Assembly (NCBI GenBank): GCA_030532825.1
Contig: JAUNKK010000019.1
Span: forward strand, 1 to 41,753
Direction: 5' to 3'
From: Propionibacteriaceae bacterium
GTDB taxonomy: Bacteria; Actinomycetota; Actinomycetes; Propionibacteriales; Propionibacteriaceae
Length of the DNA stretch: 41,753 nt
The position numbers were made by a program, and so were the translations under genes. This document shows positions 3-4,437 of the stretch, piece after piece (position 1 is the first letter of the stretch; each line of letters opens with the position of its first letter). The notes under the pieces were generated by a model. The model had not been told where the DNA came from and did not search any database. It was given only the letters and a program-made list of their open reading frames with translations.

Positions 3-149
3 GCGGAGATGATCCGGGATCTGCGCCGCTTCCTGTTCGTGGAGCATCAGGTGCCGCGTGAGGATGTCTCGATCTCCGGGTACTGGCGCCGCGGCATGAC
101 CGACGAGCAGTGGCGGGCTTCGAAGCGCGCGTTCAACGCGAAATTGTAG
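3..149 (+). CDS. Siderophore-interacting ferric-chelate reductase (SIP family), 3' end only
   Basis: Only the last 48 codons are in the window. The reading frame ends in [20 protein letters not shown] followed by a few residues and TAG. The GYWRRG(x)T(x)xxW tail is typical of the C-terminal NAD(P)H-binding part of siderophore-interacting proteins, which are flavin-dependent reductases that release iron from ferric siderophores in the cytoplasm. The assignment rests on this short tail. The gene converges on the ABC-F gene and the two coding regions overlap by 17 bases (133-149). An iron role would fit the iron-box operon further along, but no link is shown. Confidence 0.75.
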
Positions 150-1713
150 GGGCACTAGTAGCCCGCACTGCACCGTCGCGCACCTCCCAGGTGTGGTCGA
201 TGTCAAGCCGGGCCAGGAAGTCGTCCTCGTGGCTGACCACCAGCAGAGCTCCGCGGTACGCCCCGAGCGCGGCAACCAGCAGGTCGATGGTCGTCCGGTC
301 GAGGTTGTTTGTGGGTTCGTCGAGGATCAGCAACTCCGGGGGCGGATCGGCGAGCAGCAAAGCCGCGAGACTAGCGCGGAAGCGTTCACCGCCCGACAGG
401 GTGCCAACCGGACGCCGCACGGCCTCACCCCGCAGCCCGAATCGCGCCAGCCGGGCGCGCAGTAGCGACACGCTCACCGACGGGGCGGCGGCCGCCACGG
501 CATCGATGATGGATTGTCGATCTGGCAGGAGGTCGATGCGCTGCGGCAGGTATCCGGCCCGCCCGGTCAGCACGGAGCCCCCTGGGCCGCCTATCAGTAG
601 CTCTTCGAGCAACCGGGTCTTCCCCACCCCGTTGCGGCCCGTGATCGCCACGCGTTCCGGCCCTTGCAACACAAGCGGCGGGTCGACGGCGGTCACCTCG
701 ACCAGCCGCCGGGCTGCTGGCACTGTTAGCTGCGGCAGGTCGATGGCGATGGCCTCGTCATCCCACAGTTGCGACTCGGCCCGGTCGAGGGCCTCCCGGG
801 CCCGCGCTACGCGTTCGTCGGCCAGTTCCCGGCTGCGCCCACTGAAACCCTCGGCACGGTTGGCGAAGAAGTCACGCTCAGCTTTTGTCACCCCGCGACG
901 CTGGGCTTTCTGGTTCACCTGGCGTTGCCGGGCGGCCCTTTCGAGGGTGGTGATGCGCTGACGGCGCGCGTGCTTCAGTTGCTGCTCGGCCGTCCGCACG
1001 TCGCGTGCCGCCGCTTCTTGCTCGGCCAAAACCACGGCTTGGTGGCGGACCCAACCGCCGGTCGTCACGTGCAGTGCGCCTCCCCGCACCTCCGCTATGG
1101 CGTCGGCGCGCCTCAGGAGTCCCTGATCGTGGCTGGCGACCATGGCTAGGCCACGCCAGCCAGCCAGAAGGTCGTAGACGCGGCGGCGACCATCGTGGTC
1201 AAGGTTGTTGGTGGGCTCATCCAGCACGGCGATATCGCAGCACCGCACCTGCAATCCGATCAGCGCCACCAGCATCGCTTCCCCACCCGAGAGCGTGTCG
1301 AGACGGCGCTCAAGTGCCAGTGGCAGGTCGGCGGCAGCTAGTTGTTCCCGGGCCCTGGCCTCAATGCCCCAGTCGTCGCCGATGATCTCGAAGAATCGCG
1401 GGTCGGCATGGCCGGCCTCAATGGCGCGTAGCGCGTCAAGCTGGGCTCGGATGCCCAGCAGGTCGGCCACGGTGTCGCCCACCCGGAGTGTCAGATGTTG
1501 TGGCAGTTGGTCGATGATGCCGTCTCGGGTGATGCGGCCCGCGGACGGGGTGAGTTCGCCGGTGATGAGGCGCAGCAGTGTCGTCTTGCCCGAACCGTTG
1601 GGTCCGACGACGCCGGTCACCCCGGGCGAGAACGATGCGGTGATATCGGTGAGGCAGCGTTCGCCATCCGGCCAGGTGAACGAAACATGGGTGAGGGAAA
1701 CGTGTGAGGGCAT
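133..1713 (-). CDS. ABC-F family ATPase (ribosome-associated, possible antibiotic-resistance type)
   Basis: A 526-residue soluble protein with two ABC ATPase domains and no membrane segment, the ABC-F layout. Domain 1 has Walker [10 protein letters not shown] (about 37-45), signature LSGGE (141-145) and Walker [13 protein letters not shown] (161-172). A charged, arginine-rich helical linker follows (about 220-320). Domain 2 has Walker A GRNGVGKT, signature LSGGERFR and [12 protein letters not shown]. Both catalytic glutamates are present, so it should be active. ABC-F proteins bind the ribosomal E site; some dislodge ribosome-targeting antibiotics and others help translation. The ATG at 1713 has GGAG five bases upstream. 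That site lies in a hairpin behind a leader peptide (separate entries), which favours a drug-inducible resistance role. The substrate class cannot be told from sequence. Confidence 0.9.
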
Positions 1714-1717
1714 GGGG

Positions 1718-1790
1718 GCTCCGATCAGTCAGCTGGAAGCGCTGAACCGGAGCATCGCTCACGGCATCAGCGCGGGTCAGAGGCTGACGC
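1718..1790 (-). promoter_or_regulatory. Leader-RNA attenuator with competing hairpins hiding the ABC-F ribosome binding site
   Basis: In the minus-strand transcript, segment 1 (GCGTCAGC, 1790-1783) pairs with segment 2 (GCTGATGC, 1771-1764) around the leader stop codon. Segment 3 (TCAGC, 1745-1741) pairs with segment 4 (GCTGA, 1733-1729). This inner hairpin sits within an outer stem GCTCCG (1753-1748) with CGGAGC (1723-1718). The 3' arm of the outer stem contains the GGAG of the ABC-F ribosome binding site. Segment 2 can also pair with segment 3. A ribosome stalled on the leader peptide would cover segment 1, allow 2:3 pairing, break 3:4 and expose the GGAG. There is no U-run, so control would be at translation. 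Confidence 0.55.
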
Positions 1791-1800
1791 GATCACTCAC
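1777..1800 (-). CDS. Putative 7-codon leader peptide of the ABC-F gene
   Basis: GTG AGT GAT CGC GTC AGC CTC TGA would encode fMSDRVSL. A GAGGAG ribosome binding site ends five bases before the GTG. The ORF lies about 30 bases after the predicted transcription start and 63 bases before the ABC-F start codon. Its last codons and stop fall within the first hairpin of the leader. This is the arrangement of leader peptides on which a drug-stalled ribosome changes mRNA folding. Such a short ORF can occur by chance; the ribosome binding site and its position in the fold are the support. Confidence 0.55.
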   Translation of the reverse strand: MSDRVSL

Positions 1801-1836
1801 TGGGGCTCCTCAATCTCCTTGGCCAGAGTGAGCCTG

Positions 1837-1865
1837 AGTGTAGCCGCTACCGCTATCCCAGGCAA
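1837..1865 (-). promoter_or_regulatory. SigA-type promoter of the ABC-F gene
   Basis: On the minus strand, TTGCCT (1865-1860) is followed after exactly 17 bases by TACACT (1842-1837). Both hexamers are close to the TTGACA/TATAAT consensus. Transcription would start near 1830, giving a leader of about 115 bases with the short peptide ORF and the hairpins. Confidence 0.65.
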
Positions 1866-1919
1866 CGCCCCGACGAGACTCACGTAAGGTCCCAGGCAAT
1901 GGCAACATGAAGTTCACGC

Positions 1920-2785
1920 TCAGCGGCGACGGGCCCGTTTCGCGGTGCCCATGACGAGCAGGAACGGGTCTTGGCGCAGGAGCCGCTGCACGGCCACCAC
2001 CCCGATCACAAGAGCCAGCGCGCTGATGCTGAGCACCGTTAGCCCCAGCAGCACAAATACCGCTGGCATAGCTGCCCACCCCGTGGGCACAACCAACTCC
2101 TTCGGGGTGAGCACTCCCGTGAGCCACAGGCCTGGCGCTGCGCCAATGGCCGCGCCGGCCAATGCGCCGAGACTCACCCCGGAGATGATCTCCAAAGTTA
2201 CCAACCGTCGGATATCGGCGACGCGGTAGCCACGCATGCACAGCAGCCCGAATTCCTTGGCGCGCCGATCTAGGCCTACTTTGATCGAATGCACAATCTG
2301 GCTCAGCAGCAGGGACATCGCGACGCCAACCACCGTAAGAAATAGCGGGAATACGGCTAGCAAACCGGGCAACGCGCCAAGCCGGTCACGCTCGGCCACC
2401 ACGTCGAACCCTTTGTCCTGGATGGCGGATATGATGCCATCAAGCTGGGTTTCGTCTTCGGCCTGCACCCAGGCTCCGCTGACTCCATGTTCCAGCACCT
2501 CGACGGGGCTCTGCGCATAGCGGGCGGCGTAGAGCTTCACGACTAGGTTTTGCCCCGCCAGCACCGCTTTCTGCCCATAGCCGCTCCAACCAGCGGGATA
2601 GGTGCCACCACTTCCACGGTGTCGGCTTGTTGCTCCCCGGTGGATTCACCGGTGGCGCGCACATAGCTGATGGGCAACGTCTTGCCCACATAAGGCGCCA
2701 TCGCTACCCCGTCGATATGGTCGGGCACGATGACCTGATCCGCTTCGAGCCTGTGGTCAGTGACTCCCGGCGGCAGCACCCAAAG
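1920..2785 (-). pseudogene. FtsX-type ABC transporter permease, decayed (5' part lost, frameshifted)
   Basis: Two frames together give the C-terminal part of a MacB/FtsX-like permease. The first frame (from about 2785) reads WVLPPGVTDHRLEADQ and on to EVVAPIP near 2600. The sense then moves to another frame, which reads GWSGYGQKAVLAGQNLVVKL and continues to the stop at 1920. A single lost base near 2592-2600 explains the shift. The second frame holds three or four hydrophobic helices (for example GLLAVFPLFLTVVGVAMSLL) and the cytoplasmic stretch RAKEFGLLCMRGYRVADIRR typical of FtsX domains. The N-terminal membrane part is missing. The remaining start is joined directly to a broken ATPase gene, so it is not expected to work. 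Confidence 0.8.
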
Positions 2786-2916
2786 GGGTGGATTTACCCG
2801 CCCCGGAGGGTGCCTTGACAACAGTGAGGCGTCCCGGCTCAGCCACGAAGGACACCTGTGCAGCCGCGCCCGGTGTCCGAGAAATGATAGGTCAGCCCTG
2901 ATACCGTCAAAGTCAT
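2757..2916 (-). pseudogene. ABC transporter ATPase, N-terminal remnant ending just after Walker A
   Basis: An ATG at 2916 has a good AAAGGAG site and starts MTLTVSGLTYHFSDTGRG, a typical beginning of an ABC ATPase. That frame stops at 2839. A neighbouring frame continues the homology as VSFVAEPGRLTVVKAPSG, followed by the Walker A block APSGAGKST at 2813-2787. After that the ATPase sequence ends and permease sequence begins in a third frame. The rest of the ATPase (signature, Walker B) and the start of the permease were therefore deleted, and a frameshift broke the remaining N-terminus. Confidence 0.75.
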
Positions 2917-3068
2917 GACGACAGCTCCTTTAATGCCGCAGCAAAAACAACGAAGTTGAGCGGCCGACTTCGAACTAAGAAATCTTCCCCTCGCTCTTCG
3001 TTGATTTTCTCAAGAACCGATTTCCAAACATCTTGAACTATAGGAACTAGCCACTCTTTGACCGCGAC
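2913..3068 (-). pseudogene. C-terminal remnant of an unidentified protein upstream of the broken ATPase
   Basis: A 51-codon open stretch ends in a TGA that overlaps the ATG of the ATPase remnant (ATGA), as expected for neighbours in one operon. It reads VAVKEWLVPIVQDVWKSVLE at its start and NFVVFAAALKELSS at its end, an amphipathic helical tail. An in-frame TGA at 3069-3071 precedes it and no start codon with a ribosome binding site was found. Its codons (GTT, AAA, TTA, GAA) are richer in A and T than those of the surrounding genes. The family is not recognised; a regulator for the transporter is possible. Confidence 0.45.
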
Positions 3069-3228
3069 TCAACCATGCACCGTCTCAGCAAGGAGCATCG
3101 GCTCTCGCCTCTTCTGAGTTGAGGCAAACACGAATCGGACATCTTGACGTGAGGCACGACGCGCTCAGTCCTACGCAGGGAGGCCCTTGCGTTTTCCGGG
3201 CGACCTGGCGAAATCCACTCCGCAGCCC
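3069..3228. other. Non-coding stretch upstream of the decayed transporter operon
   Basis: Together with the remnant at 2913-3068, this forms a gap of more than 300 bases without an intact gene. I saw no convincing ORF, RNA gene or terminator here. It may hold decayed sequence belonging to the remnant downstream. Confidence 0.4.
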
Positions 3229-4437
3229 CTAGGTGATGGGATCTTGTCTTCTCCCGACGCGAGGTAGCCGAAGTGGGCGTCGGGCCGTCACGTACGCCGC
3301 CCCCACCGGTAGGAGAGCCAACGCCCAGAACAGCCACCACCAGGGTTGCGGGCTGGGCTCACCTAGCGGCTGGCCGAGCGGCGCTGAGCGCGCCCAGGCG
3401 ACGAAGGCGTCACCGACCGGCATGAGGCCGAAAGCGAAGGCGCTGCCATGGGGGGCGGGCAATGGCAGGCCGAGGAGATCAGCTTGCCGGTCCAACACCA
3501 TGGCAAGTTCCAGATCCCCGTGGCGGCGCGCCGCCGCCAGCGTCACCGCGGATGCGCTGAGCGATACACCGCCCACCAGCATCCCGGAGTCAACATCTCC
3601 GCTGCCACCTTCGCCGTGCGGGTACTCGCGCACCCCGACCAGGCCGAGCGTCGCGCTGAGGAACCGTGCCTTGAAGACCGGCCATTCCCGTTCCGCCCGC
3701 TCGGGGTCGATGTCTGGCAGAAAGCTCTGGACGAGGGCTTGAGACGAGCCGCGAGCCAGGTTCTCACCCCGTTGATGCACCAGAAGCCCCGCGTCATCGC
3801 GATACTTCTCCAAGCCCTGGAACCACCGGTCGGTCAGCTCGGGAAGGCCGGGAAGATCGACGATGCGGGCCGCACGATGCACCGCCGCCATGGCCGCCAC
3901 CGCATCGCAGGGCCAGGCCCGTCCCGGGTAGGAGGTGGGCAGGGGATCCTCGCCCAGGGCTGTCATCACCAGGCTGGCCTCTGCCGACACCTCGGCCCGG
4001 TGGTCGGGGTCGCCGGTAAGGGCTGCGCGGTCGACGAGCAGCAGCAGCCGCCAGCCGTGGTAGAAGGTGCCGTGTGGCAGCAGGTCGTTGTGCCCGAACC
4101 GGTTGACTATCTGCGGCTCCCCTGTCGCCGCGATGGCCTCCTCCAGCAGGGCCAGGTTGGCGGGCACGGCCACACCGTCACGCACGAGGGCGCCCGCCGC
4201 GAGGCCAGGCAGGGCCCATTGGAAGAACTCGCCCTCAGGGAAGAACTGCTGCATTTTCGGGGCCGCGGTGGGGGTGATGCGGCGCAGCCAACCCAGCTGA
4301 GCGGTCACCGTCTCTGCCCCGCGCAGCCCAGGGATCACGGACCGCCCCACCTGGCAGACCCCGAGTACCGAGATCACCGCAAGGAACCCCACCATGAGTT
4401 TTCGCACCATACGACGGTAGCGTGCTGCCTCGCTCAC
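3229..4437 (-). CDS. Membrane-anchored alpha-helical (six-hairpin-like) protein of unknown function
   Basis: 402 residues from a GTG start. A membrane helix lies near the N-terminus (MVGFLAVISVLGVCQVGRSV, about 14-34) and another near the C-terminus (WWWLFWALALLPVGAAYVTA), with a large domain between them. That domain has aromatic and helical stretches such as HGTFYHGWRLLLLVD, PCDAVAAMAAVHRAA and ARGSSQALVQSFLPDID, which recall the alpha/alpha barrel of linalool dehydratase/isomerase-like and six-hairpin glycosidase proteins. That resemblance is from memory and weak. It starts six bases after the stop of the acyltransferase gene and is probably co-transcribed, suggesting work on the cell envelope. 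The GTG has no clear ribosome binding site; ATG at 4410 is an alternative. Confidence 0.6.
   Translation of the reverse strand: MSEAARYRRMVRKLMVGFLAVISVLGVCQVGRSVIPGLRGAETVTAQLGWLRRITPTAAPKMQQFFPEGEFFQWALPGLAAGALVRDGVAVPANLALLEEAIAATGEPQIVNRFGHNDLLPHGTFYHGWRLLLLVDRAALTGDPDHRAEVSAEASLVMTALGEDPLPTSYPGRAWPCDAVAAMAAVHRAARIVDLPGLPELTDRWFQGLEKYRDDAGLLVHQRGENLARGSSQALVQSFLPDIDPERAEREWPVFKARFLSATLGLVGVREYPHGEGGSGDVDSGMLVGGVSLSASAVTLAAARRHGDLELAMVLDRQADLLGLPLPAPHGSAFAFGLMPVGDAFVAWARSAPLGQPLGEPSPQPWWWLFWALALLPVGAAYVTARRPLRLPRVGRRQDPIT

Follow-up and report, generated by a model that had tools for sequence, protein, structure and literature searches.

The leader of an ABC-F gene

The window, the whole 41,753-nucleotide stretch of Propionibacteriaceae DNA analyzed here, encodes an ATPase of the ABC-F type. 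The 526-residue protein contains two LSGGE signatures and two LDEPTNNLD motifs and is matched by Pfam ABC_tran. Its match to the NCBIfam model ribo_prot_ABC_F (NF000355) reaches 253 bits (E 4e-75), under the curated cut-off of 380 for ribosomal protection, so a resistance role is likely but not established. Among 15 named relatives of the gene, 11 have actinobacterial sources. The leader lies within 1920-1713, between the end of an FtsX-like open reading frame (ORF) at 1920 and the ABC-F start, and all features are on the minus strand. The FtsX-like frame (1920-2930, minus strand), 5' of the leader, is the C-terminal part of a permease and matches Pfam FtsX. Other reading frames contain short ORFs that may carry the remainder of that permease; two of these ORFs gave no Pfam match.

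The leader and its gene contain the following features, where uORF denotes an upstream ORF:

1860-1865, minus strand: -35-like TTGCCT, read in the sequence
1837-1842, minus strand: -10-like TACACT after a 17-nt spacer, read in the sequence; 20 of 39 leaders have a comparably placed TANNNT
1806-1811, minus strand: GAGGAG, putative ribosome binding site of the uORF, 5 nt upstream of its GTG; AAGGAG is also present at 1820-1815
1777-1800, minus strand: uORF of 7 codons, GTG start, MSDRVSL; same place and length in relative L003 (MTDRVGI)
1767-1796, minus strand: overlapping alternative uORF in another frame, GTG start, MIASASDPR, with its stop inside segment B
1783-1794, minus strand: segment A, inside the uORF; partner of D in the naked leader
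1767-1773, minus strand: segment B, GCGCTGA, 5' arm of the anti-sequestor hairpin; carries the stop of most relatives' uORFs
1739-1753, minus strand: segment C, GCTCCGGTTCAGCGC, with B or D as alternative partners
1718-1733, minus strand: segment D, GCTGACTGATCGGAGC, containing the Shine-Dalgarno (SD) sequence GGAG at 1722-1719
136-1713, minus strand: ABC-F ATPase gene, 526 amino acids, two ABC domains

Given the -35 and -10 pair at 1865-1860 and 1842-1837, transcription probably starts near 1830, which gives a leader of about 117 nt. The first-pass annotation had read this same TTGCCT-N17-TACACT promoter, which is plausible, and a leader of about 115 bases. A strict promoter scan reports none here, as the pair has 8 of 12 matches versus a cut of 9. 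The mean best promoter score is 3.5 in the leaders of relatives versus 1.7 ± 0.4 in shuffles, and TANNNT is found in the searched stretch ahead of the uORF in 21 of 39 relatives' leaders, starting between -37 and -47 in 20 of those. The 39 leaders are 37 of the 40 that have a uORF (see below) plus L051 and L056, whose starts were placed by eye, that of L051 being off by one base. A ten-base repeat, TTGCCTGGGA, occurs in two copies at 1899-1890 and 1865-1856 (minus strand), 34 bases start to start. The second copy contains the -35 hexamer, and the repeat was not noticed in the corresponding stretch of L003.

The 7-codon ORF with a good ribosome binding site that had been noted earlier is confirmed at 1800-1777. 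Its codons are GTG-AGT-GAT-CGC-GTC-AGC-CTC-TGA, and the stop ends 3 nt ahead of segment B. In the closest relative, L003 (ABC-F proteins 71% identical), a TTG uORF encoding MTDRVGI stands at the identical distance, and four further relatives (ABC-F 54-59%) have ORFs of the MTDLIGTAPLR type. The overlapping MIASASDPR frame, which the first-pass annotation lacks, ends on the stop in B that is also used by the uORFs of most relatives. Judged by eye, both of its internal differences from L003 are silent, and at its start codon L003 has CTG.

With segments A to D numbered 1 to 4, the pairings 1:2, 2:3, and 3:4 described in the first-pass annotation are all located in the window, including the GGAG in the outer 3:4 stem. 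Pairing 1:2 joins 1790-1783 with 1771-1764. Pairing 2:3 joins 1773-1767 with 1745-1739 and adds an apical stem. Pairing 3:4 joins 1753-1748 with 1723-1718 (outer stem) and 1745-1741 with 1733-1729. The B:C hairpin of the window is unusually stable, equalled by 1 of 500 shuffles (z -4.66). The C:D trap of the window alone is no stronger than chance, 78 of 200 shuffles being as strong, and its support is comparative.

The presence of all three pairings speaks for an attenuator of the ermC type. In such a leader, 1:2 plus 3:4 would keep the free RNA closed, and a drug, for instance a macrolide, would stall the ribosome well into the leader peptide, a stall that depends on the peptide sequence. 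The predicted energies stand against that arrangement. The naked window leader favors 1:4 (A:D), a pairing that the first-pass annotation does not name, plus 2:3 (B:C), with an ensemble energy of -55.4 kcal/mol, whereas 1:2 plus 3:4 reaches -50.1 kcal/mol, 5.3 worse, and the 1:2 helix has a probability near zero. The ermC-like closure proposed in the first-pass annotation is thus disfavored, and a closed form is predicted only with a ribosome covering segment 2.

Conservation and range of the leader

From 43 loci, 29 leaders were picked by eye for clear segments B, C, and D, and 28 of these (L055 is out) form alignment A3 and covariance model R1. Those set aside are L006 and 13 leaders with one or more segments unclear by eye, yet L009, L066, and L070 among the 13 have CGCGCTGA. 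Counts on 28 or 29 leaders are conditional on the hand selection, while held-out matches of R1 are not. In L006 (3243-3121, minus strand), the C-D unit is doubled. Its first copy is followed by TTCTTTTG and is terminator-like, and its second copy traps the SD.

The B:C hairpin pairs GCGCTGA with TCAGCGC and adds a variable apical stem. All 29 hand-picked leaders form it, with a mean z of -2.9, and CGCTGA is invariant in the 28 alignment rows, which had been chosen for it. At positions that can be aligned, pairing of B:C is not raised over column shuffles (90.2 versus 89.8% paired, 119/500); slid controls give only 24-46% paired. Double changes amount to one cell in the inner stem and zero in the outer stem, which has one-sided wobble changes only, because the B side hardly varies.

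The C:D pairing carries more double changes, with 20 double-changed cells versus 9.0 ± 2.8 in shuffles (0/500) and 78.8% paired cells versus 76.0 (3/500). Neither the number of double-changed pairs (6 versus 4.8) nor that of pair types (14 versus 15.5) is raised over shuffles. Since segment D is poorly placed in alignments A1 and A2, A3 and an anchored count were used. The anchored C:D count, made on 28 of the 29 leaders (L122 skipped), stands at 0 of 2000 permutations at two of the 17 pairs tried. RNAalifold on A3 returns the outer B:C stem only. For loci taken without regard to motif, opening the SD costs more than in shuffles: the mean z is 1.0 (Stouffer 6.45, the rows being related) across 41 of 42 loci, L057 being left out for lack of an SD.

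Of 49 leaders, 40 have an SD-led uORF whose stop falls in B or shortly before it, versus 4.2 expected from dinucleotide shuffles; among the 21 leaders outside the training rows of the model, 16 have such a uORF. With one ORF taken for each leader, the start precedes B by 22 to 34 nt in 38 leaders, by 16 nt in L121, and by 20 nt in L125. These counts support the earlier reading of the leader as a translation attenuator of the ABC-F gene. Loss of the short ORF or the stems in relatives had been named as evidence against it, and in the comparison of relatives' leaders both are conserved.

The peptide itself behaves differently from the frame that encodes it. Six sets of close uORFs contain 41 differences, 15 at first, 13 at second, and 13 at third codon positions; 24 changes are replacements and 10 are silent, which are small numbers. 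Given these codon-level counts, a uORF peptide that is read for its sequence is disfavored on balance, which also tells against an arrest of the ermC type. One set, L004-L007, leans the opposite way, with 4 of 6 differences at third positions (4 silent, 2 replacement), and speaks for that mechanism. The unfamiliar leader peptide of the first-pass annotation stands in part: the ORF is conserved and its peptide was not found among the literature matches listed, but a drug-reading arrest peptide is less likely, as third positions hold 13 of the 41 differences. Two candidates for such reading were considered. One is an arrest motif in the N-terminal MTD/MSD or in DR, which recur in many relatives, and the other is a phenicol-type reading of Thr/Ser at uORF position 2; the codon-level counts lend support to neither.

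Model R1 connects the leader to ABC-F genes beyond its training rows. In 198 genomes of the family, it finds 36 places at E <= 1e-5, of which 27 are the training set. Seven of the nine held-out matches lie directly upstream of ABC-F genes, one of which (at L164) is decayed, and two (L160, L161) do not. A scan of 391 genomes of the order adds three places, each upstream of an ABC-F gene, and one of 394 genomes of the class adds six, five of them at ABC-F starts. Combined, 15 of 18 held-out matches at this threshold are directly upstream of an ABC-F gene. Thirteen of those 15 end on the start codon, while G302 ends about 12 nt short and G018, which has a doubled unit, about 45 nt short. At L164 (133-400), the leader hairpin is kept before an ABC-F gene that no longer reads through. 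Matches weaker than 1e-5 are mostly chance. Seven with E between 1e-5 and 1e-3 were checked: L162 coincides with an ABC-F start, another lies 130 nt ahead of one, and the other five are at none. A second place inside the window scores E 0.002. The window's genome has one such leader, its sole other R1 match having an E of 0.09.

In a quick tree of 114 ABC-F proteins, all 39 leaders labelled as this type belong to one group of 58 with support 98, and the ABC-F proteins of tiaA-type (DDISG) leaders and of 27 three-codon leaders fall outside it. The label includes weak matches of 20.8 to 26 bits (L009, L027, L047, L067, L102, L121, L123). The tree omits loci with partial or distant proteins, including L106, L118, and L122, and L011 and L012 duplicate L072 and L073. 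Three-codon SD-led uORFs (MTD, MKL, MSL, and others) precede other ABC-F groups and resemble the published are5scL1 and Firmicutes leaders; they occur at L082, L083, L085, L094, L097, L099, L101, L105, L108-L113, L116, and other loci.

Rfam 15 has no family at gathering score in the window, and for want of such a match a riboswitch or other known RNA family was rejected. At E up to 5, the region 1600-1960 gives one weak match, on the opposite strand, of 10.8 bits versus the 40 required.

Ribosome position and the predicted switch

The effect of a translating ribosome was modelled by masking the bases it covers, with a footprint assumed to be the P-site plus 15. With the ribosome at codons 1-5 of the frame that starts at 1800, B:C has a predicted probability of 0.92-0.98 in the window. 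With the ribosome at codon 6 or at termination, the outer C:D stem is at 0.98 and the inner at 0.76. Start and stop positions of the frame at 1796 give matching behavior. An earlier run over 10 leaders produced the codon profile that led to a comparison of 35 leaders.

That comparison took 35 of the 40 uORF leaders, with L006 (doubled unit), L121, L123, L125, and L175 out. Opening the SD costs a median of 7.0 kcal/mol in the naked leader, 4.9 with an initiating ribosome, and 8.0 with a terminating one; the window itself has 3.7, 4.7, and 8.4 kcal/mol. Passing from initiation to termination raises the cost by a mean of 2.25 kcal/mol, versus -0.28 in shuffles (Wilcoxon 2.6e-6, the rows being related). 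Counting shifts larger than 1 kcal/mol, 23 of the 35 leaders go up, 3 go down, and 9 do neither. In light of these costs, the leader sequence looks arranged for the gene to be closed by a ribosome that completes the uORF and opened by one held early.

The naked leader is less uniform. By the same 1 kcal/mol margin, its SD is freer than in the terminating state in 12 of the 35 leaders and less free in 11, and the effect of absent uORF translation probably differs between lineages for that reason. The window's SD is easiest to open in the naked leader, so the OFF state of the window would depend on active translation of the uORF. Early arrest would relieve the translated state only, and basal expression might be high (3.7 kcal/mol in the naked leader). 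In some relatives, such as L074, L118, and L165, closure is stronger in the naked leader than when a ribosome is initiating, which is the behavior expected if these leaders work like ermC. In the switch predicted here, an arrest beyond codon 5 would close the SD rather than open it, and an attenuator of the ermC type is considered unlikely for the window.

The leader is probably a translational attenuator that gauges the progress of a ribosome along the short uORF, with drugs that arrest ribosomes early as its inducers. Ribosomes would normally translate the uORF and cover segment B when near or at the stop. With B covered, C would pair with D and trap the SD of the ABC-F gene (OFF). A drug that stalls the ribosome on the start codon, or no further along than codon 5, would leave B free to form B:C, which would release D and the SD so that ABC-F protein is made (ON). 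Such an arrest would need no special peptide, the spacing from start to B and the placement of the stop being sufficient in this proposal. Lincosamides, streptogramin A, and pleuromutilins, which arrest ribosomes soon after initiation, are the likely inducers; by the same logic macrolides, which act later in the peptide, should be poor inducers. The analysis shows the uORF, the segments, their conservation, and the predicted folding switch. Beyond these, we infer that the uORF is translated, that a drug arrests its ribosome and so induces the gene, and that the ABC-F protein acts in resistance.

The same two stems could act on transcription, with C:D as an intrinsic terminator and B:C as an antiterminator. 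This is the mode of lmrC (PMC8546547). The sister leaders L004-L007, where T makes up 6 to 8 of the 10 nt following GGAG, and the doubled C-D unit and T-run of L006 agree with it. The window has CCCCC after its GGAG and 1 T in 10 nt, and only 4 of the 47 leaders in which T was counted (of 49; L164 and L175 are out) reach 6 or more. A terminator scan of 1600-3300 finds none. Control in the window is most likely translational in the absence of a T-run after the trap, and transcription attenuation is quite improbable as its main mode; the T-rich L004-L007 may add termination.

The uORF could also sense slow translation in general, or a lack of an amino acid, in place of a drug. Any cause that holds a ribosome in the first five codons would be enough for the switch, and the WblC leader of Streptomyces is said to answer many drugs as well as starvation (PMC12421871). 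Early uORF codons across the family are not those of one amino acid, and the gene is an ABC-F of a type tied mostly to drugs that act on the ribosome. Sensing of starvation or slow translation is accordingly very unlikely as the function of the leader.

A narrower version of the attenuator model is possible, although we remain somewhat doubtful of it. The leader would be a peptide-blind ruler for initiation arrest, in which the stop lies in or just before the anti-sequestor stem, ribosomes that finish close the gene, and ribosomes that stay open it. The free leader would not be OFF, and removal of the uORF would switch the gene on. If the leader does act as such a ruler, it would report any early arrest, whether caused by a known drug or not. 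The family offers a clear test of peptide reading versus ribosome position, with the stop-in-stem geometry as a predictive feature. It would also add to the few known ABC-F leaders an RNA family with a sequence model, found in several bacterial families of one class, and its members would flag ABC-F genes that are likely to respond to lincosamides, streptogramin A, or pleuromutilins.

Relation to known ABC-F and antibiotic-responsive leaders

No description of this leader family appears among the literature matches listed, a search of mainly open-access papers, and some of its members may already stand among the uORFs tabulated in the supplement of PMC12421871. The nearest known systems are the tiaA (uORF MVGDDDISG) and are5sc (uORF MLV) leaders of Streptomyces coelicolor (mBio 2025, PMC12421871). 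Toeprints have been published for drugs of the lincosamide, streptogramin A, and pleuromutilin class at the start codons of both uORFs (PMC12421871). Induction of tiaA was seen only in translational fusions, and the authors warn that the transcriptional reporter may have interfered (PMC12421871). Like the window, both systems combine an actinobacterial ABC-F gene, a short SD-led uORF, and alternative leader folds. They differ in the peptide, the RNA segments, and the ABC-F group, which is separate. An arrest of the kind seen for tiaA and are5sc would switch the window leader on. Leaders with uORFs ending in DDISG, as in the published tiaA, occur at L015, L017, L022, and L026 in genomes of the same order. 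These four came from the same search, for which they are a positive control, and R1 finds no match to them at E up to 0.1.

The lmrC leader of Streptomyces lincolnensis (mBio 2021, PMC8546547) resembles the prediction for the window in another way. Its uORF must be translated for the OFF state, and a change of its start codon gives constitutive expression, a mechanism that the authors call unusual. The window is likewise predicted to need uORF translation for OFF and to become constitutive when the start codon is changed. Unlike the window, which lacks a T-run, lmrC has a mapped transcription terminator.

In the Firmicutes, cplR (uORF MRI; NAR 2023, PMC10201436) and vmlR (uORF MIN; NAR 2022, PMC9226507) share with the window a hairpin-trapped SD that becomes accessible when a ribosome stalls on the very short uORF, and their inducers probably arrest ribosomes at initiation. 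They differ from it in their phylum, in an added transcription terminator, and in uORFs of three codons. In ermC, mutually exclusive stems also govern the SD, but erythromycin arrests the ribosome within the leader peptide (PMC10219788), whereas an early ribosome position is predicted to be decisive in the window. Mutually exclusive folds that expose or hide the SD, which define an attenuator, are found in the window by prediction and comparison only. The window leader belongs to an RNA family absent from Rfam and probably of an already known kind, the ribosome-mediated attenuators of ABC-F genes.
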